A stretch of DNA of 61,322 nt, taken from positions 1 to 61,322 of the IMG/VR virus record IMGVR_UViG_3300029319_006288. The stretch is one strand, 5' to 3'. This DNA is from a virus. A program made the position numbers and the translations under genes. This document shows positions 8,101 through 56,149 of this stretch, piece by piece. The notes below the pieces were generated by a model. It searched no databases. It saw only the letters and a program-made list of their open reading frames with translations, and was not told the origin of the DNA. Every line of letters starts with the position of its first letter. Positions within the stretch are counted from its first letter, which is position 1.

Positions 8101-11100
8101 CCCTGTTGATGTATCTGGCGGTTTTGCTATCTTCACTAGATTCACACCAGACGCAAACGTTTCTGGAGTAGACTACGACCTGTTTGACAGTGGCGTTATT
8201 GTGTCTAAGTGGAGCACTGCTGAAGACATGGATTTTGCCCTCGGTTATGACGATGGATTCCTTTGTGGTTATGCCCAAGATGTCAACGGTAATATTATAA
8301 CAGTCAAAGATACTATCAAGTATAGCGGTTATCAATTCCCATTAAATACTATTCTTACATATAATGATAGTGGCAACCATAGACTTAGACTTTACACTGA
8401 TAATGAATTTGGTGGATCTGACTTTGATGTGCTGAGAGCTACATCCTCTCCTTTCCATAAAAACGCAAACGATGCAAATGTTATCTTAGGATATTCTGCT
8501 GGCTCTGGCGTGGGTATGAACATGCTGGTCAGTGAGTTTGGTGTTTCTACCTATAGCTCTGGTGTTGACACACTGTACGGATTTGGTACGAACATTGTAG
8601 CGTCTGGTGCAGATAAAACTTACAAGGGCGTTAACGCAGATGTATTCCTAGAAAATAGTCGTGCTAAGTTCTTTGATCCCGATGAGTCTCATACTAATGA
8701 TAGATATAAACTGTGGGACAGGGTAAACGAAGATACTTATAATGATTGGGCCATTGGTGACTTTAAGTTTTGTCAGTTTGGTATTGGGTTTGATCAGTGG
8801 CAAAAGCGTCCAAACGCAGAACATATTATCTTCGAATTAAATCATCATGGTTCTGGTTATTCACAAAACAACGATTTACCATTATTATCTAACGTAGACA
8901 GCGGTGTTGCATATCACACACAGATGGAAAGCGATTTCCTACGATTCCACTTGTCAGACGTTCAAGATTCATTCTATGCTGTAAACAGAAGAATAACTAA
9001 AAACCTACCAGTCGGATATAAATTCTCTGAACGTGCCCTTGTTGTCGAGACTGTTCTTGAGCATAAGACCGGTGCAGGCATAGAGTGGGCAGCATGTACT
9101 GATATCATGCCTTCTGGACCTCAGATGATCGTCAGTCTTTACACAAAGAAGCAGGAGCCATATTGGACTCCAGACGAACCAAACTGGGGTCTTGTAAACC
9201 GCAAAACTCACTACATCAAACCGTCTAGTTGTTTAATTAAACTTGACTCTGTTTTTGATTACGATTCCATCTGTGAAGAAACTGATGCTTGGACCATCTT
9301 CCCCGAAGAGCCAAGATTAAAAGACTTCTCAGAAAGATATTTCAAAGACGATGTAAATCAAATGTTTGTTCAGTATGACTTGGTTTATCCATCTGGACCA
9401 GCGTTTGATTCTAGGATTGAGATGCACTCTTCGCATGTCAGGATGCAGGATGTCAACATTTGTAAGACTGCTAATAGTGGTACATTTAATTTGTATTCTA
9501 GCGGTGCTTATCCTGCGTCCAATACTCTGAATATGAACATCGGCGGGTTCCCAAGAGAAGTCAACGATAGCTTAGATCTTACTATTCAGGTTCCTTTTGA
9601 TTACGATGTTATTGCAGAAGGAATGCCTTCTGGGTTCTCACTAAATGTTAGTGGTGCCTTCCAGAGAGAATCCTCGCTCAATCTCTTTATACCACCGCAA
9701 TCTGGCGAAATTTCGTTTAATCTTTTTGTTAGCGGTCAGTTCCCAGATGTAGCTTCTGGAAGTATGCCAATCGCCTTGCCGGTTGTTCTTGGTGCATTGG
9801 ATAACTCCTTGGATGGAAATCCAGATACTTCAGATCCAAACTCTCCAAATTACGGTAGCGGGAATATCTTTGGTCTTCCTCTTACTGTCTATAATGTAGA
9901 CTTTGGTGAAAGCCCAGAGGGTCCATTCCTCAATCTGAATATGTCTGCTTCTCTCGGTGATGCAACTAGTATATACCGATCAATTCCAATGTTCTTGTAT
10001 AATAAGTCTATTGGAAATACACAAGAGACTGCTGCAAGTGGATTTATTAACCTAAACATGTTTGGAAGAAACCAGATTCCGGGTTCACGAACAACGTCTA
10101 CCATGCCGTTGTATATTAACGCTCCAAACATAATTGATACAGATATGAATCTGTATCTTCACAACCCACTAGTAGAATCTTTACTGACAAGCACAGTTAA
10201 TCTTGTTACGGCAAGTTACAATGTAGGATCTAAAGGTACTGGATCTGCATTTGGATTATGGCACAATAATAACTATGGGACCGGAATTGAATTAGAAGAT
10301 AACTCTTATGCTTCTCTGTCCGCAGATAATGAGATTAGAGGTGTAGATTTAATAGGTTATGGATCTTGCACAGGAGACAGTCCAAGCAAAGCGATTGATG
10401 CAGAACTAAAAACAGACTGCACTGTTTGGAGAGAAGAGACATGCAATGAGGGTGGAATATTCCGAGCCAAAGCTACCTACACAAATTCTGGTGCAATTAA
10501 CTTTGAGGGTGGCTTAGGATACAGTGGAAACTACTATGGAATAAGGAAGTACACTCAACTTCTTCCTTCTACTCCATACTTTGCGACTATGAGTATTGTT
10601 ACCGGTTCTACCGACGCTATTCCTGTCCCAAGGACATTTGAGGAATGGGAATATGGAATGTGTGGTCCAGCTTGGTATGCAGACGGTAGTGGATGCTGCA
10701 CAGAAGATTGTGATGGAAACATTGTATTCTCTGGTGTCAAACTTATTGGAGATGATGCTGGCGGTGTTCCTCCTTCTGCAAATCTTTACTCTGACTCTGA
10801 CTTGATCGTTGCATCTGGTAGAAGTGCTGGTGACAAATTTGGTCAAACCGTTGCTGTCAGTGAAGATATCATGGCTGTCGCCGCACCTAATATCACAATT
10901 CCTGATTTTGGCCTTTATCCTTCCGGTGGTGATGTTGGAAACATAGATGTTAGTGGTGCTGGTGCCGTGTTCTTATATCGAAGAGGGCAAGACGAAGCTG
11001 GCAAGAAAGCTGACTGGGTTTTAGAAGAGCAGTTGATGCTACCATCTGGTTACAGAAAAGATTACATCCAGAGAACAACAGATAATCTATTATCATTTGG

Positions 11101-14100
11101 TGACTTTGCTATCTCTGGAAACAAGTGGCAAATTGGTCAAGAGGGTAGACAGTTTGGTGAATCATTATCATTGTCAGCCAGTGGTGATAGAGAAGTTATT
11201 GCTGTTGGAGCACCTCGTGCTAAGTGGTCAAGACAGTTTGATGACCTTGTTACGTCTGGTGTCCCAACTGCGGGAATGATTTTTGCCGACCTGTTTGCAT
11301 ATGATAAAGGTAAACTACAAGGTGTTGCTGCTTCTGCTGGTAAGTTCAATATTCTTTGGAAATACTTCTCAGCACCTTGGAACGCTGGCCCAGACGAATG
11401 GTATGCGGAAATCAAGCCAAACTTACTTGTCTTCCAATTAACTTATTCAAATAGAAACTATCCAAATGTACCAACCGATGAGTCTGATTGGTTTACACAT
11501 AGATACATTCCTAGACTGGATGACCTCGATCTCTTGACTGAGATTGGTTCTGGTGTACTTGGCGGATCAGGAACTCTCGCTGACTTTGTTGCTTCTGGTC
11601 AACCGGTTGTGTTTAACCAGATGTTCAGTGGTGTTCTAGATGGATTCTTTACAGCTTTCCCAAGTGGTAATCCAAACGCTGCTGCCTACAGCGGTATTCC
11701 AGCTATTATTGGTATGTTTAAAGAGCAGACAGGATCTACTGCTGGAGCGTTGCAGTATGCTGATGATAACGGCACAGTTTACAATATTTATGACGAGTTC
11801 CAAGACTTCTATGAGAAGCACTCGTTTGCCAGCGGTGTGACTGATTTTGTTCAGGGCATCCAACAAAGTGGTCATTTGCATACAGTTATAGGTAAATCTG
11901 AAGACTGGGCAGCTACATCTGTTGAGTTGATGCAAGATACTTTTGATAGTGGCCGCTTATCAACAACATTTACTAACACTACTTTAAATAGAAACTTTAT
12001 CACTAGCGGTGTTGGTCAAATCTGGGGCAATACTCACGGGTCAGTTGTTACTGAGTTCCAAGTTCCTCCTGCATCTGGCGGTAGAGTTTACTTGTTTGAA
12101 AAAGAGCGTGACAACTTTAACTGTGTTCAAGTTATTGTTTCACCTAATGATACGTCTGAACTTTTTGAAGATCCAGATATTACATTTGGTGCTTCTTATG
12201 GCAAGACATACAATGACCGTTTCGGACACTCTGTTTCTCTTAGTAAGAATTCAGAAGTATTAGCAATTGGGTCTCCTTGGAATAATAATCCATGCAAGAT
12301 TTACGAGAGAAGCGAATCACAGATTCAAAGAGTATACGATAACATTAGAGCATGGCTCGTATATAAGGGAGATCCATTTACTTACGCTGTAGAATATTAT
12401 GATTCTGTAGAGGGTGCTTCTGGTGCAGCAATTGCTAAGACAGCTACTTATGATTACATTAAATCTCCAGACAGATTTGAATATCGAAACGATATTGATT
12501 TCTGGGGTTCTTCATTGCCAGAGCCATATCAGTTAACATTTGAATATGGTCACAATGATGTAAGATACTTTGGAACAAGAAAGTTTCTCATCGACGAGTT
12601 TGCAGGAACATCCAGAATGGGATGGAGTTGCTCTGTAGACGAAGATGGCGAGATTGTAGCGTTTGGGGCACCCACAGACTCCTTCAACGAATTTGAAGAT
12701 ATTAACGTTTGGGGTGATAACGTACTGTCTTGGGCTTCTTACAACAATGCTGGTGCAGTAAGAATGTTCCACAATAGAAAATACTTCCCACACGATAAGG
12801 TTGTAGAGTTCGGTCGCTTTGGAAACTTAGACAGATCAACCCATGACTCAGAAAGAAATGCTGGATACTACGATGAAAGCAACTGGCCCTTAATCTTTGG
12901 TTCTGGATCTAGCGGATTTTCAGAGTACCAAGGTAGGGACTGGCGAAGGATGGATTTCTCAGAAATAGAAATTCCTCAAGAGGCTGGCCTCGCATTTATT
13001 ATTACGCCAGAGGTTGATGCTGCCAGCGATGAGATTATTGAAAACATAAAAGACTGGATGGAGCTTGGCGATAGAAATCTTGTCTTGGTTGGTAACGACC
13101 CAGTATGGGAAGACAACGGACTGTACAAAGATTCCAATGATGTCATTAATAAGATCCTAGAAAAGTTAGGTTCTAGGATGCGGATTCAGGCAGCTAAAGA
13201 TCAAAGCTACTCAATGCAAGGATGTGTCAGTCAGCAAGACCTAAATGACGAGAAGTACAATGCTACTGCATCATTCTTGCCAGCATACTCTACACCAAGA
13301 ACAATTGAATTTGATGGTGAATATTACGTTAAGGGCGTTGGCGATATCCGCATAGACCTGTCTAGAGATGGTCTAGAAGATTACTTCGCCACAATTAACT
13401 GTCCAGACGGAGCGAACTGTGACGGACCACCTCTGATTATTAATACGAAGTGCGAGTTTGCATTAGACGGTAATCGTGGAGACTTACGTGCAGAATGGAA
13501 CGACTCTTGTATCAAGACTACACCTAAAAGCTGTAAGATAGTTCGCTACCAAAGAAACTGGCCGTTCTTATTTAACAACTTCACTCCTAATTGTGATGAA
13601 ACACCTCAACCATTATTCTTTAAGAAGGATCAGTCACCAACACCTGTCTTGACAACTGCCGAACATCTTCCTGAGATTTACTGGTTTGACCCAGCTACGT
13701 CTGGACTTTTTTGTGATTATTTCCAGCCCTACAAATACAGGGTCACACGTAAGAACGAAGAAACAACTTTCCTCGCAGAAGTAAACGAAGACGAAATCGC
13801 CTTTTTAATCCAAGAGGATAGCGACTCTGATATATCTGGAGTATTTACTGATTATGCTCTGGGTGGAGACATGTTTGATCCAGATGCAATCAATGGACGA
13901 GATGGTTTGATGCAAGCTACTGGAACCTCTGCAACGAGCGTTGACGAAAGAACTGTTCGAGAAACTGTTTATCCAGACCATATCTTTGGATTAGTTGAGT
14001 CGGGCAAAAAGGCTGATGGAACACTTAACAATTCTAGGGTTTACATCTTGGCTGGTCAGTGGCCGGAAGATGACGCTAGTAGAGGTATCAGTCACCCAAC

Positions 14101-17100
14101 CAATAATGACGATAAGAATACAGAATTTTACCTCAACATGATTCGCAAGAGTTGTGACGAGGTTGCGAGGGGTATTCAAATTAATGGGTTTACAGGAAGA
14201 TCCTCATTAAACAATGCTTATTATCTTGAGGGTGATTCAAATGAGGGTCACGGTCTTGGTAATAAGATTAATATTGAGTTGTTGCTTGCTGGGGGGTACT
14301 TCAAGGAGAATCAAGCAATCACCGCATTAAACGACCAAATAGATTTTGCTTGGCTTGCCTTCCCATCTGGTAAACCTTCAAGTAGTGACCTATCTAAGAT
14401 CAATAACTGGTTGGACACAGGCGAGAAGAAACTTATTATCACATACAATGCAATATCTAACCCAGCTTCTCAGCAAACTGCTGATAGAATTGACCACCTT
14501 TGCAGTGGCCTTAATATTACAAGTAGACCTATGTTCTTACCAAAACAAGGTGAATATCATAGAAATTCAGTAATACAAAGCTACAACGAGCTTGGCGGAA
14601 CCCAAGTTGTTAATTACTCTACTGATAGCGTCAGTGGTTGTGATGATGGTTATGCATGGACATTCCCTAATTATCAGTTTGCTACGAGTTTGAGCGGCAT
14701 CGAGTTTAGCGAAGCTACTTCTGATCCAGAACAAGGTCATGGCGATTTTGGAGATGCTGACAAGAAGGCTATTGTACCACTGTCTGGCGGGTTAGATTTC
14801 GAAAGAATAATTTCTTTTAATGAGCCCGTTATTCAAACTTACAAAGAATACAGTAACAGAAACAACTGGACGATTGACGGGAATGGCTCTATTAAGTTCC
14901 CAATTGAACCGGGATCTGGATATAGAGTGTGGGTGAACTGGGTCTCTGAGACTAGATTTGAAGAATTTGGCATATGTCTAAATACTCCAACAGAAATTAT
15001 AAGAGAGGGTGAGTTTAACACTGGAGAATCTCAGTTTGATTCATGTGGAACTCTTACAGAATTAAACAAAACTACTACATATGTTCCTTCTCAGTTTGTA
15101 TTTGATTTTAGAACTGAAATAGAACAAGATATAAATGAATTAGAATTACAGTTCACTACCGATAAGTGGTCATCTTTCATAAACTCTGATTTGTTAGAGG
15201 GTATTCCTTTACCTCCATCAACTCCTCGTGTTCTTTCTGTATCTGGAGCACCGCTGGAAGTAATAACTGAGATTTCTACAACAACAAGTAGTGGGCTTGT
15301 TCCAGACGGTCCTCCTATCCCAATCAACTGTAGGTACATAGTTAATCCTGCTCAGAGCGGATACATTCCGGGTGAGTCAAGACCTGTAAAACATAAGAGC
15401 GAATTATACTGTGGAGATATTCCTTTCGGTGATAAAGATTGCTTAGAGGCTTCTGTAGGTTGGGCAAAAGAATTGATAGAAGATGGACCAATCGTTGCTG
15501 CGGAAGAATTCGAGAGCTTTACTTCGTTTAGGAATGGAACCAGAAGATCAAAGATCATCTTGATTTCAGACTCGACCTTGGTACAGGGTCAATGTCCTCA
15601 CTACAGAGCGTCTGCTACCGAGGGTAATCAAAGTTTTGTGAGAAATCTGTATCCTCCTTCTCCAGAAAATGTAAGAGACGGAAGCGATGGATTCGGTGGC
15701 GGCGGCGGTGCCCCACAGGGCGGCGGATTTGATATTAATAATCTAAGAAATACTGTTGCCGGTAAGAACTGGGAGTTCACGCAGAAGATACGTGCCCCTG
15801 AGCGGGGAAGCACAGCTAAGTATGTTGCCGTGAGTGGAGGCTCTATCGGTGCTGGTACTATTTGTCCAAGCCGACTTTGGGGTGGAAATGGCGTTGTGGG
15901 AAGTTTGGGTAATTATTCAGACAACGAAGATTCTTATGACCCAACAACTCTTAGTAGGCCAAAAGAAATAAAAGATCCAGACAAGATCCAAGCAAGAAAA
16001 GAGTCGTTCTTTAATAATGACGCCTTGGGCACTCATGGAATGTATCCAAGATTTAGTGGTGATTTCCTAGATATTGTAAATTATCAAGGTGGTATTTACC
16101 AAGACTACGACTACTTACTAGACCTTGCCGAAGAGACGGATAGAGACTTCATCCTTGATGCTGGTATCGGTGGCGGTCTGACAGAATTGATGAAGATAGA
16201 AAATGCAGACTATCTTGATTATGACATATTTAATTCTGGGTGTCCGGGTGATTTGTTTGGTTACTCTATTGAGATCAATGATGGTAAGTTAATTGTTGGA
16301 ACTCCTTACAACGCATTTGCTGCTGAAACCGCAATCAGTGGTGTTAGCGGTGTCGTACAGTGGCACGAAATTCAAAATGGGCCAGATGCCTCTGGCATGA
16401 AGATAGGTGCCGATGGTGGTGCTGGTGCCGCTTTCATATACAACAACACGGACAACGGCAAAAATGTAATTGCAGAGGGTTTGCCTTGGGAGTTTGGTGC
16501 CAAGATCAAGCCTGAAAATGTAAATGTCGGACTTTATGATTTCTCTCCAAGCCCAATTCAGGTTCTGGAAGCGGAGCGTGGTCCTCACCAAATCGCAGAT
16601 CCTAGCTTTATTCTTGAGTACGCGAGAAGAGGTGATAGATTTGGATTCTCTGTTTCTATGGATTGTGACATGGCAGCAATCGGTGCTCCTAATCACGATT
16701 TCGCTACTTTGCATCATCATATCTACAGCGGTGTGGTCGCTTACAATGGAAGTGGTTTGAGCACAGCTTTCCAAAGAAAGAGCTTTAACGGCGAATACGA
16801 CATTCCGTCTCATTCCTTCTATGACTTAGCCGACTCTGGTATACGTGTAGACCAGTTTAATAATAATAGCGGTCTTATGATCCTAAACGGTGGTGCTGTT
16901 TACAATTATAGAAATGAATTGATAGACTTTGGAGCCAGAACACAAGAATGGCAATTTGCTGAGAAGCTGTACGCAGCAGGATACCAAGAAAGAATTCAGA
17001 CAGATATTGATGACGATGGACTTGGAGGTTTCATTCTAACCGCTAGTGGATCTGACAATGATAACTTTGGAAAATCTGTAGCTATCTATCGCTCATACCG

Positions 17101-17779
17101 TGGAGATAGTGATTACACACTGGCAATTGGATCTCCATATCATGATTGGCCTACAAGTGGTAATCACCCAACGAGTGGGCTTGCAAGTGCTGGATCTGCA
17201 TATACCTTTGATGCTATGCTCAGAGAGCAAATTCCATCCATTCCAAATAGTGGCGGGTGGATAGATGCCCACGTATTTGGAAACAAAAAATCAAAAGAAA
17301 GTACAGACAGATTAGAGACTAGGGTTTACCAGAACACCTCTGGCGACCCAACTGAGTATAAAATTTCAGGAATTATATTTAGTAATCAAAATGGTGACAT
17401 TTTCTTGGAAGTCTCTGGCTTTGACCCCTCTAGAAAGGGTTTTGTGGCCCACAGACCATACGTCAAAGAGGTTGATCTGAAGATACTATTTGGAACCCCA
17501 GAAAGTGGATATATGCCGCTGGTTACCTCTGGTGAGCCGGTATTAGAGTCTGGAAACATGAATCTTTCTATGTTGGGGGCAAGCAGTGCAAATGTGTATA
17601 ATACTTTAGGACTGAACAATTTTGGCGTAAGTGGAATTGCTTCTGCCGATGGGATAGATCAAAGTGGATTGTTCTTGAACATATCAGCACCAAGCGGGCC
17701 ACTCCCAAGTTCATTAAATTTAGTCATGGGGAGCACTGCAACTACAGACTCTCTTGATTTAAGGATAAGAGGTTTTTAA
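5105..17779 (+). CDS. Giant virion protein with FG-GAP propeller motifs, LamG-like stretch and beta-strand repeats (4224 aa)
   Basis: Its position directly after the tape measure suggests a distal-tail, fibre or adhesion component. Visible elements, by approximate residue: a LamG/concanavalin-like stretch (985-1110); a run of short strand repeats of type xLNLxM / MPLxI (1455-1700, recurring at 4140-4224); and FG-GAP motifs (GDxFGxSV...AIGAP) near 1909, 2013, 2370, 2503, 3713, 3841 and 3984. Most of these are followed by the GAVYxF strand expected in integrin-type propeller blades. Between the fourth and fifth motif lie segments resembling Rossmann-type halves (about 2626-2669, 3080-3117 and 3480-3495). 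Ser-Gly dipeptides are very frequent throughout. The ATG at 5105 follows AGGA by 7 bases, and the stop abuts the next ATG. Which host molecule it binds, if any, cannot be told from the sequence. Confidence 0.8.
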   Translation: MSEPFLKSLECSCIKGTSVTCPGGGEVDAFLGLNEGVLSATLENDSKITSPGETLTANFSTVLDGSGPYFTISGCSDPENCEFVEAGWEVTISGLAGAVPFTETANVINTYADGSALIFYGGGVDLTNAQIDSVVASGIGHPTPPNATIAKSFGIEDIILEGEGELSRLLSAEIPFPLVSIEGDGEIDEDLIADYSIYQQVVGEGDFDNTVDKMAGDFGDFYCQGKLYPSGDLPVVDGFGSFIAPYNQSGNLWSYIDEGVYEGIAKDGGNSNNLSDDLNSYIEPNTIHTEGLFQYNCNLTSLNVRPDHSAFRIRVSAPLSNLESKTAPLYTLYNIRLSDPSGNLIVKYNDIQIKGDANDEYENFSTYSSLPELNVISDKYDWERRGFPHMHEDVGYQLSFSVRAVSLDDPFTEGFDEGFEENYIIPETFYASGNNYLALDGQPLSTQEVRFINPTRGFRISAVEICNSGGFGPRPEEYLPFQMAVREKGRRLERCIQPNFMPLNTYDTTIYPAVNNNIWENDTLNATNEDVCGAQELINILKVQNDDRYIKLQTAQGGDVADSGKLILKFKHGRSKVDEITPGDFNFAFDQGTKNIWFSPSGAFNVEKRTEEIQEDSPYFNVESLTLKVLAKKQVGTRDYVLDVVGYSDDKLLNVTSPSGGFIQDPSGVFLNDQFVPHTGQHPVLSGFYGDNSDWTMGGAGLSERDDYFEASGNDHYKLAQYPVVNTTDFQLYEVPLVILDDNVRYGISRDYSLSSLLEHLYLDIYPLPSGASIAYIELCARYAPADGLNIYTQGGEKIGKAQAGRSEGALFPSGMESYDDILNAGSGYQPISAITGLPHAYSSPDTIKTNYSRRWRGSEGTVRGPYDLDSFGFGFENPTIDYPFLSGYYKFDSFGPENRYVLSVDMGPSSPSGLGTLSGLCLTDPEIHHNIGWRFASGTLFNDQLPGYSGNYTTTDWTSLSNGSTTFVGNPLYGKIADAFDRVIRISGEAGGQNIDFGPVDVSGGFAIFTRFTPDANVSGVDYDLFDSGVIVSKWSTAEDMDFALGYDDGFLCGYAQDVNGNIITVKDTIKYSGYQFPLNTILTYNDSGNHRLRLYTDNEFGGSDFDVLRATSSPFHKNANDANVILGYSAGSGVGMNMLVSEFGVSTYSSGVDTLYGFGTNIVASGADKTYKGVNADVFLENSRAKFFDPDESHTNDRYKLWDRVNEDTYNDWAIGDFKFCQFGIGFDQWQKRPNAEHIIFELNHHGSGYSQNNDLPLLSNVDSGVAYHTQMESDFLRFHLSDVQDSFYAVNRRITKNLPVGYKFSERALVVETVLEHKTGAGIEWAACTDIMPSGPQMIVSLYTKKQEPYWTPDEPNWGLVNRKTHYIKPSSCLIKLDSVFDYDSICEETDAWTIFPEEPRLKDFSERYFKDDVNQMFVQYDLVYPSGPAFDSRIEMHSSHVRMQDVNICKTANSGTFNLYSSGAYPASNTLNMNIGGFPREVNDSLDLTIQVPFDYDVIAEGMPSGFSLNVSGAFQRESSLNLFIPPQSGEISFNLFVSGQFPDVASGSMPIALPVVLGALDNSLDGNPDTSDPNSPNYGSGNIFGLPLTVYNVDFGESPEGPFLNLNMSASLGDATSIYRSIPMFLYNKSIGNTQETAASGFINLNMFGRNQIPGSRTTSTMPLYINAPNIIDTDMNLYLHNPLVESLLTSTVNLVTASYNVGSKGTGSAFGLWHNNNYGTGIELEDNSYASLSADNEIRGVDLIGYGSCTGDSPSKAIDAELKTDCTVWREETCNEGGIFRAKATYTNSGAINFEGGLGYSGNYYGIRKYTQLLPSTPYFATMSIVTGSTDAIPVPRTFEEWEYGMCGPAWYADGSGCCTEDCDGNIVFSGVKLIGDDAGGVPPSANLYSDSDLIVASGRSAGDKFGQTVAVSEDIMAVAAPNITIPDFGLYPSGGDVGNIDVSGAGAVFLYRRGQDEAGKKADWVLEEQLMLPSGYRKDYIQRTTDNLLSFGDFAISGNKWQIGQEGRQFGESLSLSASGDREVIAVGAPRAKWSRQFDDLVTSGVPTAGMIFADLFAYDKGKLQGVAASAGKFNILWKYFSAPWNAGPDEWYAEIKPNLLVFQLTYSNRNYPNVPTDESDWFTHRYIPRLDDLDLLTEIGSGVLGGSGTLADFVASGQPVVFNQMFSGVLDGFFTAFPSGNPNAAAYSGIPAIIGMFKEQTGSTAGALQYADDNGTVYNIYDEFQDFYEKHSFASGVTDFVQGIQQSGHLHTVIGKSEDWAATSVELMQDTFDSGRLSTTFTNTTLNRNFITSGVGQIWGNTHGSVVTEFQVPPASGGRVYLFEKERDNFNCVQVIVSPNDTSELFEDPDITFGASYGKTYNDRFGHSVSLSKNSEVLAIGSPWNNNPCKIYERSESQIQRVYDNIRAWLVYKGDPFTYAVEYYDSVEGASGAAIAKTATYDYIKSPDRFEYRNDIDFWGSSLPEPYQLTFEYGHNDVRYFGTRKFLIDEFAGTSRMGWSCSVDEDGEIVAFGAPTDSFNEFEDINVWGDNVLSWASYNNAGAVRMFHNRKYFPHDKVVEFGRFGNLDRSTHDSERNAGYYDESNWPLIFGSGSSGFSEYQGRDWRRMDFSEIEIPQEAGLAFIITPEVDAASDEIIENIKDWMELGDRNLVLVGNDPVWEDNGLYKDSNDVINKILEKLGSRMRIQAAKDQSYSMQGCVSQQDLNDEKYNATASFLPAYSTPRTIEFDGEYYVKGVGDIRIDLSRDGLEDYFATINCPDGANCDGPPLIINTKCEFALDGNRGDLRAEWNDSCIKTTPKSCKIVRYQRNWPFLFNNFTPNCDETPQPLFFKKDQSPTPVLTTAEHLPEIYWFDPATSGLFCDYFQPYKYRVTRKNEETTFLAEVNEDEIAFLIQEDSDSDISGVFTDYALGGDMFDPDAINGRDGLMQATGTSATSVDERTVRETVYPDHIFGLVESGKKADGTLNNSRVYILAGQWPEDDASRGISHPTNNDDKNTEFYLNMIRKSCDEVARGIQINGFTGRSSLNNAYYLEGDSNEGHGLGNKINIELLLAGGYFKENQAITALNDQIDFAWLAFPSGKPSSSDLSKINNWLDTGEKKLIITYNAISNPASQQTADRIDHLCSGLNITSRPMFLPKQGEYHRNSVIQSYNELGGTQVVNYSTDSVSGCDDGYAWTFPNYQFATSLSGIEFSEATSDPEQGHGDFGDADKKAIVPLSGGLDFERIISFNEPVIQTYKEYSNRNNWTIDGNGSIKFPIEPGSGYRVWVNWVSETRFEEFGICLNTPTEIIREGEFNTGESQFDSCGTLTELNKTTTYVPSQFVFDFRTEIEQDINELELQFTTDKWSSFINSDLLEGIPLPPSTPRVLSVSGAPLEVITEISTTTSSGLVPDGPPIPINCRYIVNPAQSGYIPGESRPVKHKSELYCGDIPFGDKDCLEASVGWAKELIEDGPIVAAEEFESFTSFRNGTRRSKIILISDSTLVQGQCPHYRASATEGNQSFVRNLYPPSPENVRDGSDGFGGGGGAPQGGGFDINNLRNTVAGKNWEFTQKIRAPERGSTAKYVAVSGGSIGAGTICPSRLWGGNGVVGSLGNYSDNEDSYDPTTLSRPKEIKDPDKIQARKESFFNNDALGTHGMYPRFSGDFLDIVNYQGGIYQDYDYLLDLAEETDRDFILDAGIGGGLTELMKIENADYLDYDIFNSGCPGDLFGYSIEINDGKLIVGTPYNAFAAETAISGVSGVVQWHEIQNGPDASGMKIGADGGAGAAFIYNNTDNGKNVIAEGLPWEFGAKIKPENVNVGLYDFSPSPIQVLEAERGPHQIADPSFILEYARRGDRFGFSVSMDCDMAAIGAPNHDFATLHHHIYSGVVAYNGSGLSTAFQRKSFNGEYDIPSHSFYDLADSGIRVDQFNNNSGLMILNGGAVYNYRNELIDFGARTQEWQFAEKLYAAGYQERIQTDIDDDGLGGFILTASGSDNDNFGKSVAIYRSYRGDSDYTLAIGSPYHDWPTSGNHPTSGLASAGSAYTFDAMLREQIPSIPNSGGWIDAHVFGNKKSKESTDRLETRVYQNTSGDPTEYKISGIIFSNQNGDIFLEVSGFDPSRKGFVAHRPYVKEVDLKILFGTPESGYMPLVTSGEPVLESGNMNLSMLGASSANVYNTLGLNNFGVSGIASADGIDQSGLFLNISAPSGPLPSSLNLVMGSTATTDSLDLRIRGF

Positions 17780-48449: not shown

Positions 48450-49449
48450 ATATTCCTTTCTCAACTTCGTAGTCCATTTTCTTTTGCTCTCGCTGTGGTT
48501 GATGCATAGCCCATTTAAACATCTCATCAACCGTCTCTTCTAGATTGGTATCGTCACTAAAGTTCAGCATTTCTTTTGCTTTGGTGTGGTCACAAAAAGC
48601 GTGTTTAGCTTCGTGACGACCCTCTACATGCTTCTTTTCTGCTTCAAAGCCATTCTTCCAAGCTACACGCTGAACTGTATCTGCAAGTTCATTGATTGTG
48701 TATGCCTTGTCTGCACCAATATTGAAAAGCTCGTCATCGTGACCGTCAATAAGTTGCTCAAAAGGCTTCATGTAATACTTGATATCAGAGAACGCACGAG
48801 TCTGTTCACCGTCTCCGTAGATGAGCATTGGCTCACCAGCGAGGACGCGACGAATAAAAATGCCTGCAACGTTGCGGTACTTGTCCCAGATATTCTGATA
48901 AATACCAACAACATTATGTGGACGAATAATATTATAGCGTAATCCATGTTGCTCACGAGCCACTCTGATATCTTGTTCAATGGCATACTTTGCAATTCCA
49001 TAGGGATCAATAGGGGCTGGCCCCATAGCCTCAAAAAATGGTGGGTAGTGATTTCCGTATACAGCCATACTACTAGTGAAGATTAACTTCACATTGTGAT
49101 TGATGCACTGATTGATAACATTCACGCTTCCTAAAACATTATTTGTATAATTGAAATGACGGATAAAGGGCGATAATCCTTCTGCTGCATAGGCGGCAAA
49201 ATGGTAACATGCCACAATATCACGGCGAGGGTCGATGAAAATATGCTCTAGTGATCTTGGTGCCCATTCACCGTCACTCAAGTCCAAGGGCCAGAATTCA
49301 AATTGTTCTGGAGTTGCTTTTGGAAGATAGTCTGAGTATCCACCGCTAAGGTCATCAATCCCAATAACTTTATAACCTTTACTCAGAAGATGTCGGCTAA
49401 AGTGTGAACCTAATAGTCCCGCACATCCTGTTACTACGATTGTTTTCAT
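48433..49449 (-). CDS. UDP-glucose 4-epimerase-like extended SDR (338 aa)
   Basis: The Rossmann motif GCAGLLGSHFSRHLL lies at residues 8-22, with IDDLSGGYSDYLP following as in GalE-type enzymes. The catalytic pair is in DPYGIAKYAIE (YxxxK), and IFTSSMAVYGNHYPPF carries the catalytic Ser. IYGDGEQTRAFSDIKYYMKP is the substrate-side signature. It would interconvert 4-epimeric UDP-sugars. Full length with an intact cofactor site. The gene precedes the DUF115-like gene with a 17-base overlap. Confidence 0.85.
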   Translation of the reverse strand: MKTIVVTGCAGLLGSHFSRHLLSKGYKVIGIDDLSGGYSDYLPKATPEQFEFWPLDLSDGEWAPRSLEHIFIDPRRDIVACYHFAAYAAEGLSPFIRHFNYTNNVLGSVNVINQCINHNVKLIFTSSMAVYGNHYPPFFEAMGPAPIDPYGIAKYAIEQDIRVAREQHGLRYNIIRPHNVVGIYQNIWDKYRNVAGIFIRRVLAGEPMLIYGDGEQTRAFSDIKYYMKPFEQLIDGHDDELFNIGADKAYTINELADTVQRVAWKNGFEAEKKHVEGRHEAKHAFCDHTKAKEMLNFSDDTNLEETVDEMFKWAMHQPQREQKKMDYEVEKGIYDYWK

Positions 49450-51134
49450 TTAATAACCCCTTTATTTTTTAACACCTCGATTCGTTTCTGTTCCCAAGTA
49501 TTGATTCTATGTCTTTGTGCTACCATAGAATCATAAGCAATATGGAAATCAAAACCCTGTCTCTGATTTGTACCATCAAATGCCTGACTAGATTCATTAA
49601 AGTACATACCGCCAGTTGATCCCGTAGACGATTTGTAAGTTAAGTCTCTAATCATTCTAGATTCAAAAAATGTTCCCGCCCTTAATGGGTCTCTCAGAAC
49701 ATTTCCGATAAGGTACTGAGCCTGCATAGTTGGACTTACATTCTGCAATTGGTCATCTGGAATCTTATCTGCGGGTTCTAGAACTCGTGGAGGCGAAGCC
49801 CAAGTTTGCTCAATAGGTCTAATAGGAGTAGCGTCAAAGATTTGCTCCCACTTGTTTCCACTAAGGTGCCATTGGAAGTGCTTTTCAAAGTTCTTCCTTG
49901 TTCGCTTACCTTCTGCGACACGTTCTTCTTCGGTTTTATTTTGAAAGAAGTGAAGGAAATATTCCGCTGCCGCATCATTATCTGGGACAGCACGAAGACA
50001 ACCAGTCTCTAACTCTTTATAAAGTGCAGCCGGTTTAATGGGATGCCCTTGCAGTTTACGAATCTCACTCTCCATAGCAGAGTAGTCAGTTCCGCACACT
50101 GGAACACCACAAGCGGCAGCTTCTACATAGGGCAAACCAAAACCTTCAGAGTTAGCATATTGAATGTAAAGATCAAACAGGTTCTGGATTCGAGACAGAT
50201 CCTCGTAAGACGCACCATTCTTCACATTTGATAGAGTAGAGCCCCATTTTCCAGTATATGGAGACTGTGTTACAGCACCCTTAAACAAGGATGGGAATGG
50301 CTTCTTTGTCTCAGGGCAGATATAGGTGAACAAAACATGTGAAGACAAGTTGTTTTGCAAGATCAACTCTGGGATGTCCCAACCAAGATCAGGATAAGAA
50401 GTATGACAATAAAGATAATACTTCTTGCTTTCTGACTTATCCAAAAATTTCCTAAATGCTTCAAACAAATCTGGATATAGTTTACGTCGTTGATTACGCA
50501 TAACAGTTCCAAGGATTTTATACTCTGGGTCAATCCCCATAGATAGCTTGTGTGCTTTCTTGTCTTCAATGGGATGATATGCTGGATGGGCAGAAGGCGG
50601 TGAAGATCCATGATACTTAATTTTACCACCAGATTGATCTGCAAGTACAGTTCCGGCCCAATCAGAATATGTCAGACAAGCATCAGCACCAGCATATGTT
50701 GAAACCCACTGTCGTGCTTGCGGTCTAGCATCGACCGTTGGCATAATTACCCAATCGAAATAGGGTCGAAAAGGACTTCTCTCTGCGAAGTCGAGCATCC
50801 AAAAGTCTCGAATGTCGCATACAATATCAGGCAAGAAATCCAAGCAAACATGTTCAAAGATCCATTCTCCAAATTGATTTGTAGCAGATGATCCAAACGC
50901 CTGAAGTTCTTCCTGACTTGCCTTTGGTTCGCAGTCTGTGTTTGGTTGAACACCGTAAAACTTCCAAGGAATATTTGCTGCCCTTGGGTCATTTCGTTGA
51001 CCATAGGATGCCATTTCAGCAAGCTCATACTTTCCAGTAGAGTGCAAGTAATTCAAAATCTCACGAGTATAGGTAGCGTATCCAGTGTTCAGGAAGGTAG
51101 CTTCGCTACAGAACAGAATTCGTTTCTTTCTCAT
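49446..51134 (-). CDS. Large GT4-type glycosyltransferase (562 aa)
   Basis: I choose the ATG at 51134 (RBS AAGGAA) rather than 24 bases upstream, so the gene starts just after the ssb stop. The N-terminal half begins RILFCSEATFLNTGYATYTR, the GT-B acceptor strand. The donor half shows YIQYANSEGFGLPYVEAAAC followed by GVPVCGTDYSAME, the GT4 EGFG..xxEA..CGxPV signature. Beyond the catalytic domains it carries about 120 extra C-terminal residues of no recognised family. It may belong to the cassette promoter at 51465-51493. Confidence 0.8.
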   Translation of the reverse strand: MRKKRILFCSEATFLNTGYATYTREILNYLHSTGKYELAEMASYGQRNDPRAANIPWKFYGVQPNTDCEPKASQEELQAFGSSATNQFGEWIFEHVCLDFLPDIVCDIRDFWMLDFAERSPFRPYFDWVIMPTVDARPQARQWVSTYAGADACLTYSDWAGTVLADQSGGKIKYHGSSPPSAHPAYHPIEDKKAHKLSMGIDPEYKILGTVMRNQRRKLYPDLFEAFRKFLDKSESKKYYLYCHTSYPDLGWDIPELILQNNLSSHVLFTYICPETKKPFPSLFKGAVTQSPYTGKWGSTLSNVKNGASYEDLSRIQNLFDLYIQYANSEGFGLPYVEAAACGVPVCGTDYSAMESEIRKLQGHPIKPAALYKELETGCLRAVPDNDAAAEYFLHFFQNKTEEERVAEGKRTRKNFEKHFQWHLSGNKWEQIFDATPIRPIEQTWASPPRVLEPADKIPDDQLQNVSPTMQAQYLIGNVLRDPLRAGTFFESRMIRDLTYKSSTGSTGGMYFNESSQAFDGTNQRQGFDFHIAYDSMVAQRHRINTWEQKRIEVLKNKGVIK

Positions 51135-51135
51135 T

Positions 51136-51453
51136 TTATTCCTTGTCCAAGCATCCAAAGTCGAATTGATTAACTCTAAAAATAATATCGTCCACGGAGT
51201 CGGTTTTCATGACACCGTTTCTGGCAGAGGCGTGTACGGTCATTTTCATGCCCTTCTTTCCTAGTTTAGCGATTGCGTCTGCACCACTATCAAAGGCTTG
51301 GAAGGTCACAGTCGTTGGATAACGCTTCTTATCACCACGCTTGTTTCTTGTGTACTCGTATGTCACCAGCTTAAAAACGCAAACTGATGGGTTTTTTTCA
51401 TAACCTATATCTGGGTCAAACAATAGATACCCTGTAAAAATACAATGGTTCAT
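51136..51453 (-). CDS. ssb: Single-stranded DNA-binding protein, OB-fold (105 aa)
   Basis: It begins NHCIFTGYLLFDPDIGYEKN and continues with VCVFKLVTYEYTRNKRGDKK, then TVTFQAFDSGADAIAKLGKK and MKMTVHASAR. This is the strand order of bacterial/phage SSB (GxL..DP.....FxL......F.AF...A......KG..). It lacks a long acidic C-terminal tail. It sits directly downstream of the second dnaE half and has its own promoter-like sequence, so it may be expressed early with the replication genes. Confidence 0.8.
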   Translation of the reverse strand: MNHCIFTGYLLFDPDIGYEKNPSVCVFKLVTYEYTRNKRGDKKRYPTTVTFQAFDSGADAIAKLGKKGMKMTVHASARNGVMKTDSVDDIIFRVNQFDFGCLDKE

Positions 51454-51493: not shown

Positions 51494-53059
51494 CTAAATT
51501 TCGTGAATTTTCTCAACAATAAATGAATTATCCTTTTCAATATCTCCGCAAAGCATGAGATTGGCACCTTCGTAAAGAACAAACTGGTATTTGTCTCTTG
51601 CGTCTGGGAAAATGATTACATTGTCTAGGGAGCAAGTGGCATCTTCAATTGTGAGGAACGACATGATCCGCCCTTTTTGCTTGCTATCCTTCTTGTTGAT
51701 CTTATGATTAGCTACACGTTGAACATTCGCTACAATGCAAATATCCTTACCAAACTTACCATTGGCTACTTCTTGACATGTAGTATTAGCAATTGATGCG
51801 TCGATAGCATCTGTATACTGATATGACACTGGGCAACCCAAGAGTTTAACCTCTTCTGCGATAACCCACTGTGGCTCGTCAGACATATCATATGGTGGAT
51901 TTTTTAGCATATCAATCTCACCGTACACAATCTGACTACGATTGGCGTTGCTACATCCACCACCCATTTTCTTGGTAGGAGACAGATCTCTGAAACAATC
52001 CTGTAGTTTTGACCACTTCTTTTTAGAGTAGTTCTCTGTTACCCACTTTACCTCTGCCTTTGTTAGCTCACGCCAGATGAGATACTCGTACAATGCTTGA
52101 TTTCTAGTGACACCAGTTTTCTTTGTTGAGAAGAATCCAATACCAGCAAGTGCCTTGAAAGCCGTAGACGTAATCTTGGGGGCGATGTAGATAAGCACAT
52201 CCATCCAAGTAAACTCATCAGCAGGTTTGCCCAATTCTTCTGTAGCATCACCAATAGCCTTCAAGACTTTCTCGCCAGTGACACCAGTAAGACCTTTAAC
52301 GTCACGAACTCCAAACTGAATGTCATCACCAAAGATGGCAAACTTCTCAGAGAACCTGTTTAGTTTAGGAGTCTTTACTAGTATATTGAATAGTTTAGCT
52401 TCGTTTACTAGCTCATAGATTTCCTGATGAGGATCTTGCTTTTCATTCGCATAGTACAGGTAGGACAAGAAGAACTCTTTTGTATAGTTCGCCTTGTAGT
52501 ACGCAGACCAGTACGAGTCGAGTGCGTAGGCAACGGCATGAGACTTGTTGAAAGAATAACGAGACGACTTTTCAATCCAGTCAAAAATCTGGTTTGCAGT
52601 GTCTTCATCTACAAGTCCAACCTTTTCACAGCCTTCGATGAATTGTCCACGAATCTCAGCCATGAGAGACGCTTTCTTTTTACCAATAGCTTTACGAAGA
52701 TTGTCTGCCTCCATCTCATTGAATCCCGCAGCTTTGACCGCGATGAGCATAGCCTGTTCTTGGTATACAAGCACACCATGCGTAGTCTTTAGAATTTCTT
52801 CTAGACTAGGATCAAGATAGACAACATCCTCTCTTTTATGTTTACGGTCTACAAAGTGCTGAGTCATAGACTTGCCCTCGCTAACCGCCTTCAACGTTCC
52901 GGGCCTGATGATAGCGATCAATGCCGCTAGTTCCTCAAGGTTTTCCGGTGCAACTCTTTTGGACCATGCACGACCAAGGTTACTCTCAAGTTGGAACAAG
53001 CCTTTGGTCAATCCATCTTTGTACAAGGTCCAAGCCTTTGGGTCATTTCTGTCAATCAT
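51494..53059 (-). CDS. dnaE: DNA polymerase III alpha subunit, C-terminal part of split DnaE (521 aa)
   Basis: This half carries the fingers and later domains. KGLFQLESNLGRAW and LAALIAIIRPGTLKAVSEG match E. coli DnaE just after its palm. TTHGVLVYQEQAMLIAVKAA and YSFNKSHAVAYALDSYWSAY (about residue 165) are the conserved fingers motifs. The last 100 residues form an OB-fold-like region (ICIVANVQRVANHKI ... MSFLTIEDATCSLDNVIIFP). The catalytic Asp residues are in the other gene (54521-56149). The ATG directly follows the TAA of the 88-residue gene. No intein is present at the junction. Confidence 0.9.
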   Translation of the reverse strand: MIDRNDPKAWTLYKDGLTKGLFQLESNLGRAWSKRVAPENLEELAALIAIIRPGTLKAVSEGKSMTQHFVDRKHKREDVVYLDPSLEEILKTTHGVLVYQEQAMLIAVKAAGFNEMEADNLRKAIGKKKASLMAEIRGQFIEGCEKVGLVDEDTANQIFDWIEKSSRYSFNKSHAVAYALDSYWSAYYKANYTKEFFLSYLYYANEKQDPHQEIYELVNEAKLFNILVKTPKLNRFSEKFAIFGDDIQFGVRDVKGLTGVTGEKVLKAIGDATEELGKPADEFTWMDVLIYIAPKITSTAFKALAGIGFFSTKKTGVTRNQALYEYLIWRELTKAEVKWVTENYSKKKWSKLQDCFRDLSPTKKMGGGCSNANRSQIVYGEIDMLKNPPYDMSDEPQWVIAEEVKLLGCPVSYQYTDAIDASIANTTCQEVANGKFGKDICIVANVQRVANHKINKKDSKQKGRIMSFLTIEDATCSLDNVIIFPDARDKYQFVLYEGANLMLCGDIEKDNSFIVEKIHEI

Positions 53060-53326
53060 TTAAATTCCAATAAAATACTTCAGAGCAAAATAAGAAGCCG
53101 CTGTAACAACAAATCCAACAATAAGTCCAGTAGCAAGGCCGGTTAAATAACCATCATATGGAACGGCTATTTCTTCTGGAATGTCTTCTGGGTTTTTATC
53201 TGCACGCTTCTTTGCTTCTTGCAATGCACTGTCAGTAAACAAGTAGTCAATCTCCTTGTCTCGAATGTGCCAGTAGTAACCCTGTGCGGTCTTGTACCGA
53301 CCTTTATTTTCTACTTCTCTAAACAT
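53060..53326 (-). CDS. Small C-tail-anchored membrane protein (88 aa)
   Basis: The N-terminal 60 residues are hydrophilic (GYYWHIRDKEIDYLFTDSAL). A single hydrophobic segment near the C-terminus (LATGLIVGFVVTAASYFAL) ends with KYFIGI, a tail-anchor-like layout. The family is not recognised. Its gene lies between the NaeI-like nuclease and the second dnaE half with 9 and 0 bases of spacing. It could tether a replication or nuclease component to the membrane, but this is only an inference from position. Confidence 0.6.
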   Translation of the reverse strand: MFREVENKGRYKTAQGYYWHIRDKEIDYLFTDSALQEAKKRADKNPEDIPEEIAVPYDGYLTGLATGLIVGFVVTAASYFALKYFIGI

Positions 53327-53335
53327 AATAATCTC

Positions 53336-53857
53336 CTAAATAAATATTCTTTTCCAAAACGGGGTAACTTGATTTCTTTTTGCTGAACCCAACCAATCAA
53401 TTTTGCTTTTGCCGTGTTTTGACACACTCAGCTTTTTGTCCCTATTCATTCCTTTGGTTAGATTATCTGCTGTTGTTCTTAAAAGTCCATAGCTGACCTC
53501 GTTTGCGTCCTTAACCTTTGTCAGTAAGCAGATCCCATCAATGCGATAGCACTCAGGCGGAATATACCATTGAGGATTTTTCAATGCTGTAAACTTAATG
53601 TCAAAGTCAATTCCTTTATGGCTACAATCAAGGTCGTCGCCATCTGCAAGTTTAGCTTCAAGAACTAAGTATCTCTCAAACTTAATTCCAATAATAGACT
53701 TCTCTGTTTTGGTGAGTTCCTTCATGTCAGTGAACCCTGTACGCTTCGTATCCAATGTAAAGTCTATCGCATCAAATGCTGCCTTCGCAACCTTTAAATC
53801 AAACTTTGGTATAGACAAAATATACCTTTTAATTTCTTCTAATTCACTGTCACTCAT
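53336..53857 (-). CDS. NaeI-type restriction endonuclease homologue (173 aa)
   Basis: The sequence LDTKRTGFTDMKELTKTEKS followed by KFERYLVLEAKLADGDDLDC, then GIDFDIKFTAL, WYIPPECYRIDGICLLTKV and GMNRDKKLSVSKHGKSKIDW follows the N-terminal nuclease (endo) domain of NaeI: E, then D, then D-x-K, with the IP.E and NRDgKrSvS segments. The catalytic Glu, two Asp and Lys are kept. The C-terminal CAP-like (topo) domain of NaeI is absent. No methyltransferase is encoded nearby. The gene lies between the dnaE halves and overlaps the exonuclease gene by 4 bases. Confidence 0.75.
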   Translation of the reverse strand: MSDSELEEIKRYILSIPKFDLKVAKAAFDAIDFTLDTKRTGFTDMKELTKTEKSIIGIKFERYLVLEAKLADGDDLDCSHKGIDFDIKFTALKNPQWYIPPECYRIDGICLLTKVKDANEVSYGLLRTTADNLTKGMNRDKKLSVSKHGKSKIDWLGSAKRNQVTPFWKRIFI

Positions 53858-54528
53858 ACGAATAGTTTTCCGTCCGCGAACGCTTTTTCAAACTTCATGT
53901 TCCGGTAGACTGCTCGTCTGGACTTTTGCAGTTTGATCCAGATGTTTGCAGTGTCCTTAACGTCTTGGAGAGCGTCGTGAGCGTTTTCACTGGACAGTCC
54001 CATTCTTTCTCGTAAGCTATCCATACTAATAGACTTAACATTTGGATCTCCTTCTGTCCACAGCCACACATCATCCATTACGTCAATTTTATAAATTTGG
54101 TGAAAGAGTTTTTGGCACTGACGTTTGTCGTCGTATGGTCCGTATTCTTTACACAGTCTATTTACGATGTGCATATCATAACCAAGGATATTAAATCCAC
54201 ATGGAATGGGTGCGAAGAACGATGTACCTTTCCAATTATATTTGTCTACAAACGCACAGAACTTTTTCCACACACCTTTTGGAAGTGGTGCCTTGGCAAG
54301 TTTCTCTCTGGTCTGACCGGTTACTTTCAAAGCACCTTCTTCTAGCGGGTCAACGCCAGCTTTGATTGCTTTCTCGTCGTCGATAATGGGACGCATGAGA
54401 CTATTGAATTGTCCCTTGAGTCTAAAGTTCCTACCGTCAAGTGCGATAGCAGCAATCTGTGTAGGTTGACACTTGTGGGGATTACGCCCACCAGTCTCAA
54501 AGTCAAATACAATAATATCTCTATTCAT
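53854..54528 (-). CDS. DnaQ-like DEDD 3'-5' exonuclease (224 aa)
   Basis: The Exo I motif is FDFETGG (Asp9, Glu11). GFNILGYDMHIVNRL is Exo II with Asp. HDALQDVKDTANIW is Exo III, with His giving the DEDDh subclass. Bacterial epsilon subunits have the same order and proofread for the alpha subunit. The gene starts 7 bases inside the end of the first dnaE half, so the two are translationally coupled. As the polymerase PHP site is degraded, this is the likely proofreader. Confidence 0.85.
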   Translation of the reverse strand: MNRDIIVFDFETGGRNPHKCQPTQIAAIALDGRNFRLKGQFNSLMRPIIDDEKAIKAGVDPLEEGALKVTGQTREKLAKAPLPKGVWKKFCAFVDKYNWKGTSFFAPIPCGFNILGYDMHIVNRLCKEYGPYDDKRQCQKLFHQIYKIDVMDDVWLWTEGDPNVKSISMDSLRERMGLSSENAHDALQDVKDTANIWIKLQKSRRAVYRNMKFEKAFADGKLFV

Positions 54529-56149
54529 TAATTAGCTCCTTGATAAACATCAATTTGTCCAATAAGTTCAACCCAAGAAGGTCAAACTTAACGTGACCTA
54601 ATGCTTCTAGGTCGTTCATTTCCAATCCCGCAATCTTCTCACCGCCACTCTTCTGATTCACCATAGGGCAAACTCTGTATAGTGGTTCGGCAGAGATGAC
54701 AACGCCAGCAGCGTGTTTTCCCTGTGTCTTAAATGTACCTTCAATATCAATAGCCTGCTGAAAGTATTCTGCAAAATCTCCCTGTAATCTACCCTCCTCG
54801 TCGATATGACAGTAGTCCATCAAATCGTCTGCACGATTCTGTAGTGTCCAGCGAATGATAGAACGATCTTCTTCGTCCATCTGCGATAGTTGGTCAGAGA
54901 TAGCAGCTTCGTCTGGAATGTACTTTGTAATCTCATTCATTTCAGCAAAACCACAAGCATCATTCACACGAAGAACTTCTTTCATCGCACTTCGCCCTTG
55001 CAGTCTACCAAACGTGAGCATCTGACTAACGTTGTCAGCACCGTATGTTTCTTTTAGTCTGGCTACAATTTCATCACGCTTATTTCCGGGAACGTCCATA
55101 TCAATATCAGGAAGAGATATATGGTCATCTGTATTACGACCCTCATTGTAGAAACGCTCAAACAGTAGATCAAACTCGATAGGGTCAATCTGTGTGATAC
55201 CAATTAGATAGGAGATAAGGCATCCAGCAGCAGAACCTCGTCCGGGTCCAACCATCCACCCTTGTTCGCGACACCAATTTAAAATGTCCCAAACGATGAG
55301 GAAATACCCAAATAGATTTGCCTTTTCAAAAACCTCAAACTCTTTTCTAAAACGGTCACCGTATACCTGACGTTCCTCTTGGCCGGTGACTTTATCACCA
55401 AGAAGTTTTTTCCAGCCATTTCTTGCCAGTTCCCGCAAGTAATCCTTCTCTGACTGTCCGTTCGGAGTCTCAAAGACTGGCAACATTGGCTTGCTCAGGA
55501 TGTTATAATTATCACACTTATTAAATATTTCCTTAAAGTCTTCCATTCGTGGGTCGTCTATAACCAGCTTGGATGACTCTAGTTTATCTTTAATGTAGAA
55601 GTCGTCTGACTCAAAGAATACTCCGTACTGATCATCTGCTTCTGATAGTCCGTTTTTCTTAACCTTACTAAGTGTAGTCTTGAGTTTACCACAAAGTACA
55701 ATTCTATGCAGTTCTGCTTGATCTTTAGTTGCATAGTGACTCTTATTAAAAGCCTCAGACCAGATATAGAAATCATCACCTGTAACGGGAGACAGAGCCT
55801 CAGAGTTGGCAATGCAGATAAGGTTGCCCTGTCGTGCGAGGCGAACCATAGTGCTGCGATCCTCATTACCATCTGCATCAATTGTAGATACAATCTCAAT
55901 GAGGTTCAGCCATCCCGCATGGTTTTTGGCAAAAAGAGCAAAGCCATCGAAAGAACAACCAATGATCGGTTTGATATCATTGTCCATGCAGGCTTTGTAA
56001 AAAGATATGGCACCGCTAATAGTCTTATAGTCAGCGATGCCGCAGGCGGGATAAGAATTCTGCTTGCACTTCTTGGCAAGATCGCTTGGCTTGGAAAAGC
56101 CATATTGTAGTGAATAGTGGGTGTAGTTCAGTAGCGGAAACCACTTCAT
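54521..56149 (-). CDS. dnaE: DNA polymerase III alpha subunit, N-terminal part of split DnaE (542 aa)
   Basis: It carries the PHP and palm domains. Residues 1-65 are PHP-like (LNYTHYSLQYGFSKPSDLAK, then PACGIADYKTISGAISFYKA), but the HxH is YTH and the DH is DY, so the metal site is lost. The palm holds WMVGPGRGSAAGCLISYLIG, LPDIDMDVPGNKRDEIV with the catalytic Asp pair near 347-349, and HVKFDLLGLNLLDK near 520-530 with the third Asp. The ORF ends 10 residues later, where E. coli DnaE continues into the fingers. A promoter lies just upstream. Confidence 0.9.
   Translation of the reverse strand: MKWFPLLNYTHYSLQYGFSKPSDLAKKCKQNSYPACGIADYKTISGAISFYKACMDNDIKPIIGCSFDGFALFAKNHAGWLNLIEIVSTIDADGNEDRSTMVRLARQGNLICIANSEALSPVTGDDFYIWSEAFNKSHYATKDQAELHRIVLCGKLKTTLSKVKKNGLSEADDQYGVFFESDDFYIKDKLESSKLVIDDPRMEDFKEIFNKCDNYNILSKPMLPVFETPNGQSEKDYLRELARNGWKKLLGDKVTGQEERQVYGDRFRKEFEVFEKANLFGYFLIVWDILNWCREQGWMVGPGRGSAAGCLISYLIGITQIDPIEFDLLFERFYNEGRNTDDHISLPDIDMDVPGNKRDEIVARLKETYGADNVSQMLTFGRLQGRSAMKEVLRVNDACGFAEMNEITKYIPDEAAISDQLSQMDEEDRSIIRWTLQNRADDLMDYCHIDEEGRLQGDFAEYFQQAIDIEGTFKTQGKHAAGVVISAEPLYRVCPMVNQKSGGEKIAGLEMNDLEALGHVKFDLLGLNLLDKLMFIKELINE

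Follow-up and report, generated by a model that had tools for sequence, protein, structure and literature searches.

A family C DNA polymerase encoded in two genes around an exonuclease gene in uncultivated phages

The DNA polymerase III alpha gene (dnaE) of the virus record IMGVR_UViG_3300029319_006288 (the window hereafter is the whole stretch of 61,322 nt) was found as two separate ORFs. The first (N) encodes the PHP and palm domains and the second (C) the region from the fingers to the OB fold, and three ORFs, encoding a DnaQ-like exonuclease (Exo), a NaeI-like protein and a membrane protein, lie between them. Probably, a family C replicase is encoded here as alphaN and alphaC around the Exo gene; the two chains would form a non-covalent core, and the gene would have been split by local rearrangement. 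A two-chain polymerase, or a three-chain one with Exo, would be the best reading of the locus. Its ORFs are all on the minus strand and are listed below together with the flanking genes.

54521..56149, minus strand: DnaE N-half, 542 aa, with a degenerate, shortened PHP domain and palm/thumb (Pfam PF02811 PHP, E 1.5e-15; PF07733, E 2.7e-67; phmmer matches to DnaE structures)
54536..54541, minus strand: Shine-Dalgarno-like AAGGAG, 7 nt ahead of the exonuclease ATG and within the last N-half codons (read from the sequence)
53854..54528, minus strand: Exo, a DnaQ-like (DEDDh) 3'-5' exonuclease (Pfam PF00929, RNase_T, E 6.4e-12; PHROG 'DNA polymerase exonuclease subunit')
53336..53857, minus strand: NaeI-like restriction endonuclease catalytic domain, 173 aa (Pfam PF09126, E 6.3e-26, aligned only to positions 16-150 of 288)
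53060..53326, minus strand: membrane ORF of 88 aa with a hydrophobic C-terminal stretch, variable cargo (ORF list, Pfam; homologues in the relatives L009 and L002)
51494..53059, minus strand: DnaE C-half, 521 aa, fingers to OB-like fold (Pfam PF17657 fingers, E 1.1e-41; phmmer matches to DnaE structures)
51136..51453, minus strand: SSB-like protein, in this position in most relatives of both the split and the intact form (Pfam SSB; synteny)
49446..51158, minus strand: glycosyltransferase (GT), syntenic flank (Pfam; synteny)

The five ORFs from N to C stood where a sequence-only reading of this DNA had placed them, and Pfam supported their assignments. That reading had ended the N-half about 10 residues after KFDLLGL and begun the C-half at KGLFQLES, where the fingers start; the N-half does end shortly after its motif, but at a distance of 15 residues, and the C-half does begin near the fingers, but 18 residues ahead of KGLFQLES. 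The nearly complete cover of E. coli DnaE that it had proposed was borne out. With E. coli alpha as reference, the N-half was aligned up to residue 573 and the C-half from residue 591, so that about 17 linker residues are without counterpart and the break lies at the palm/fingers boundary, the domain limits being those of DnaE crystal structures. In the window, the Exo start overlaps the N-half end by 8 nt, and the NaeI-like ORF overlaps Exo by 4 nt. Elsewhere in the window (5105-17779), a 4224-aa ORF was observed beside large ORFs of 1720 and 1483 aa; no PHROG match was found for those of the other large ORFs that were searched.

To gather relatives (L numbers), viral contigs were scanned with the window's N, Exo and C and with the L017 and L187 polymerases as queries, and the loci were classified by gene order. 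All three genes were present in 251 loci, 164 of which were distinct by exonuclease DNA. Among these 164 distinct relatives, 162 contained N, Exo and C in separate ORFs, while only two had Exo followed by a one-ORF polymerase; the constant gene of the gap is Exo, which lies between N and C in the same 162. In the commonest arrangement the Exo start overlaps the N end by 8-11 nt. About a quarter of the split loci (61 of 243, by a gap criterion and with duplicates counted; e.g., L006, L007, and L068) carried no cargo. Assembly error, which the sequence-only reading had listed among the possible objections, was ruled out as the source of the split, as the 162 relatives with the same break came from many samples. 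The split is old and stable over a large group of uncultivated phages.

No close relative was found among cultured phages: the best N and C matches were about 30% identical, and those examined were intact except in phage phiT1, while Exo had distant matches only. Bacteroides phage SJC03 was tested as a carrier of a split dnaE and rejected, the tested neighbours of its Exo being terminase and ligase. In bacterial genomes there were two close Exo matches, in MAG contigs labelled SAR202 and Flavobacteriales, which are too weak for host assignment. The contig binned as SAR202 (L285; VFHP01000007.1, 152,655 bp) had an Exo 89% identical and the ORF order N-Exo-(133 aa)-C-like, and this match may be either a host hint or a product of mis-binning. 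In four split loci (L284, L274, L279, and L281) the Exo between the halves was very divergent and formed a long branch in the Exo tree, perhaps representing a replacement.

The sequence-only reading had also proposed comparing close relatives for an intact dnaE. An intact syntenic form does exist, in L017 and L187, but this pair is separate and more distant from the window, and the close relatives are all split. L187 has an uninterrupted DnaE of 1144 aa with PHP, palm, fingers, HhH, and OB regions; L017 is continuous at palm/fingers and interrupted downstream at YSFN/SHSV (slashes mark junctions). The intact order is F9-F5-F2-F3-F10-F7-Exo-dnaE-SSB-GT (in L017; L187 is visible up to the GT start and has an extra 357-aa HTH ORF between Exo and dnaE), and the split order is F9-F5-F2-F3-F10-N-F7-Exo-C-SSB-GT (e.g., L189), F7 being an ORF of 70-83 aa that was not detected in the window's clade. 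The flanks, including the glycosyltransferase, are collinear, which shows that both forms occupy one and the same locus. Exo already lies directly upstream of dnaE in the intact form, and comparison of F10-F7-Exo-dnaE with F10-N-F7-Exo-C indicates that two neighbouring blocks, F7-Exo and N, have changed places between the loci. This difference would result if F7-Exo-N was duplicated in tandem and the first F7-Exo and the second N were then lost, or from the reverse route.

For the direction of this change, we give about an even chance to a single old fission, in which the intact pair, sister to all split lineages, keeps the ancestral state, and the C-half of the L189 group was later acquired from the intact lineage or the C-half tree is misleading. 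Bacteria and other phages as a rule have dnaE in one piece, the N-half data are compatible with split monophyly (p-AU 0.44), and PHP shortening would then need one event only. Against this, the joint trees nested the intact pair within split lineages (UFB 98-99), and the C-half data also favoured nesting: the C-half tree joined the intact pair to the L189 group (100/99), with p-AU values of 0.044 for split monophyly and 0.010 for a grouping of L189 with the window clade, which was rejected. The opposite direction, to which we assign a probability a little short of one half, holds that the ancestor was split, that the halves were exchanged separately, and that L017/L187 re-fused a full-length N of other ancestry before an L189-type C. 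In addition to the nesting and the C-half results, it draws on the N-half tree, which joined the L189 and window clades (98/98) and left the intact pair unplaced, a grouping of the intact pair with L189 being marginally rejected by the N-half data (p-AU 0.043). It is further favoured by the loss of about 100 PHP residues, together with the PHP His ligands, which the window clade has in common with the L189 clade but not with the intact pair. However, the joint data did not reject split monophyly (p-AU 0.055 and 0.066), the N-half data were far from doing so, and all of these values come from groups named after the trees had been seen, a long distant outgroup branch, differing compositions and only two intact lineages. 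The Exo tree was too poorly resolved to decide the direction.

The PHP residues and ligands are kept in L017, largely in L187, and in the split lineages L224, L251, L270, and L284. Since these basal split lineages keep their PHP, the split is independent of PHP decay and earlier than the decay in those lineages. The conflict between the N and C trees hints that the halves may have been exchanged separately, and the intact gene is possibly a re-fusion; given the post hoc choice of groups and the distant outgroup, we treat both as hypotheses. Tentatively, and with less than even probability, the polymerase may have been broken around its own Exo gene in an ancestor of the large clade; its halves would then have evolved as separate modules open to exchange, until they were joined again in one lineage. 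If true, a replicative polymerase would here have passed through a natural cycle of fission and fusion.

The sequence-only reading had attributed the split to a nuclease gene such as the NaeI-like one. Insertion of that gene, or of a homing endonuclease of its kind, into dnaE has precedents in nuclease-split genes, namely Aeh1 nrdA/mobE and T4 topoisomerase/mobA (PMC2988022), and nuclease genes (endonuclease VII-like, HNH/PDDEXK-like) are frequent among the cargo of the junctions. We nevertheless regard it as very improbable here. When all fetched relatives were compared, the full NaeI-like gene was found in the window only, and there it lies between Exo and C, in a gene that was split already. 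A 22-residue NaeI-like remnant, 86% identical, directly follows Exo in L003 (10494-10559), and the closest relatives L001, L002, and L004 carry other ORFs at this site; the homologues of the 88-aa ORF in L009 and L002 are 37-67% identical and occupy the same place. Moreover, the split is common without any cargo, its constant gene is Exo, and Exo already stood just upstream of dnaE in the intact form. No nuclease gene was present at the break throughout the split loci and missing from the intact ones, and a search among the relatives for intact and split loci differing by a nuclease gene alone found none. Endonuclease VII-like ORFs are among the cargo of the loci, one family of them recurring in 39 loci; further cargo comprises an FkbM-type methyltransferase, HTH-containing ORFs, a 165-aa ORF that appears PDDEXK-like by eye and has no Pfam match, and others. 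The NaeI-like gene is recent cargo, and the junctions are insertion spots in a gene already split. As nuclease genes are frequent in the junctions, an older nuclease may conceivably have driven the split; a mobile element, since lost, may also have stood at its origin.

Rejoining of the halves by a cryptic intein or intron can be almost dismissed, although relatives do have inteins, and a fractured intein, at other sites of dnaE. As the sequence-only reading had noted, there is no intein and the break is away from the cyanobacterial site: no Hint domain was found in the window's N or C by a Pfam search that does detect inteins in L012, L017, and L132, and FNKSHA is uninterrupted in the C-half. 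Rfam gave no match at 48-58 kb of the window or in eight relatives (families outside Rfam would be missed). In addition, the end of N and the start of C can be aligned to the linkers of L017 and L187, which run on uninterrupted, and the 8-nt overlap of N and Exo leaves no space on the N side. In the relatives, several interruptions were observed at other sites. In L017 (8001-12687), a DnaE intein is split around a free-standing NUMOD3/DUF559-type ORF (10715-11602) at the conserved FNKSH site, and this break resembles the 'fractured genes' described by Dassa et al. 2009 (cited in PMC6892783). L012 (10331-12679) has an HNH-domain intein inside the C-half at RPG/C...N/CLK. In L056 (4346-6311), the N-half carries at GPGRG/S what appears to be a compact split intein, whose halves are in different frames with no endonuclease ORF between them. 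L132 (8479-12112; also L171) has two such sites in the C-half: an intein close to RPGC, and a fractured intein-like break that holds an ORF of 295 aa similar to the endonuclease ORF of L017. About 270 bp without a recognised intein interrupt the N-half of L018 (4274-6225) just ahead of SLPDIDIDV.

The window has the marks of a family C polymerase, a palm with three catalytic Asp and fingers, except that it is not a single polypeptide. In the N-half, LPDIDMDVP contains the catalytic Asp cluster and KFDLLGL contributes the third catalytic Asp; these residues were invariant in an alignment with 18 relatives; D9, E11, D118, H184, and D189 of Exo (DxE, D, HxxxxD) were invariant in 12 relatives. The PHP metal-binding motif was lost, NYTH and ADY being present in place of HxHxH and TDH, with about 100 residues missing. 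An active PHP metal-binding motif is not universal among family C polymerases. The HhH and OB regions were below the Pfam limit in the window's C-half and were detected in L187 and L017; the model of the window's C-half ends in OB-like strands. The AF2 models, built on alignments of 18 (N) and 14 (C) sequences, had pLDDT 85 for the N-half, with Foldseek TMq of 0.72-0.76 to DnaE, and pLDDT 77 for the C-half, with a Foldseek E value of 5.6e-21 to DnaE and a whole-chain TMq of only about 0.5. Purifying selection acts on N, Exo, and C: dN/dS against close relatives (Nei-Gojobori) was 0.06-0.11, 0.02-0.04 (rising to 0.06 with L076, which is more distant), and 0.04-0.10, respectively. Low dN/dS and invariant catalytic Asp and DEDDh residues indicate that both halves are maintained. 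The window is a genome fragment and another polymerase may be encoded elsewhere, but that such an enzyme replicates the phage while the halves decay is hardly credible with these values and with halves that persist at 40-60% identity.

On the reading that we prefer, a two-chain replicase, alphaN (PHP and palm/thumb) and alphaC (fingers to OB-like fold) would be made separately, with the break in the palm-fingers loop, and N, Exo, and C most likely come from one translationally coupled transcript. The chains would assemble non-covalently as a Pol III-like core, alphaN-epsilon-alphaC, for which the split phage polymerase 43A/43B, with halves that co-purify in active form, is a precedent (PMC2988022). 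Because the window's PHP is without metal ligands, Exo is the natural proofreader, and it would take over proofreading from the degenerate PHP; bacteria are known in which DnaQ makes up for an inactive PHP domain (PMC12926913). The break itself would have arisen by the local swap of the F7-Exo and N blocks, for example through tandem duplication with complementary loss, and not by the action of a restriction or homing endonuclease; the membrane gene and the NaeI-like gene would have been inserted later.

Split phage polymerases are already known, and what is new here is the family C variant around the Exo gene. In the T4-like Aeromonas phages 25 and 44RR, a replicative polymerase is likewise encoded in two adjacent genes (43A/43B), and the halves from phage 25 co-purify and are active; however, these enzymes belong to family B, and what accompanies the split is either a seg endonuclease or untranslated sequence between the cistrons (PMC2988022), whereas the window's clade has family C with Exo between the halves in nearly all members. 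Split family A phage polymerases are also known (PMC10580990). The group 2.2 jumbo phages form Pol III alpha from two proteins too, but these are a minimal core of catalytic and template-binding domains that has none of the other Pol III domains, its genes lie far apart, and the phages also have a family B polymerase (PMC7824862); the window encodes a near full-length DnaE, from PHP to the OB-like fold, in adjacent genes around Exo. Cyanobacterial DnaE is encoded in two genes as well, but it is broken in the FNKSH region and its chains are ligated by a split intein, in contrast to the palm/fingers break without intein in the window; it is the relative L017 whose intein break lies at this downstream, cyanobacterial-type FNKSH site. 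In Rossellomorea phage phiT1 gp20/gp18 (PV767480; L263:3947-7229), DnaE is broken in the same loop, between PHP plus palm and fingers. Its polymerase is of a distant lineage and an unrelated 49-aa ORF lies between its halves, and the split is apparently an independent event. The E. coli Pol III alpha-epsilon core shares with the window a DnaE-type polymerase, a separate DEDDh exonuclease and a PHP domain without the full metal site, but its alpha is one chain and dnaQ lies outside dnaE, while in the window alpha is two chains with the Exo gene between. In the literature searched (subscription papers lay outside the search), no account was found of a family C polymerase of near full length that is split around an Exo gene throughout a large clade and has an intact relative in synteny.

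These results mean that a broad clade of phages can keep a family C replicase in the form of two chains, and that the palm/fingers loop is a natural break point, apparently used at least twice independently. The matched syntenic intact and split enzymes are a means to test how gene fission arises without inteins or introns, and what covalent linkage gives a replicative polymerase.
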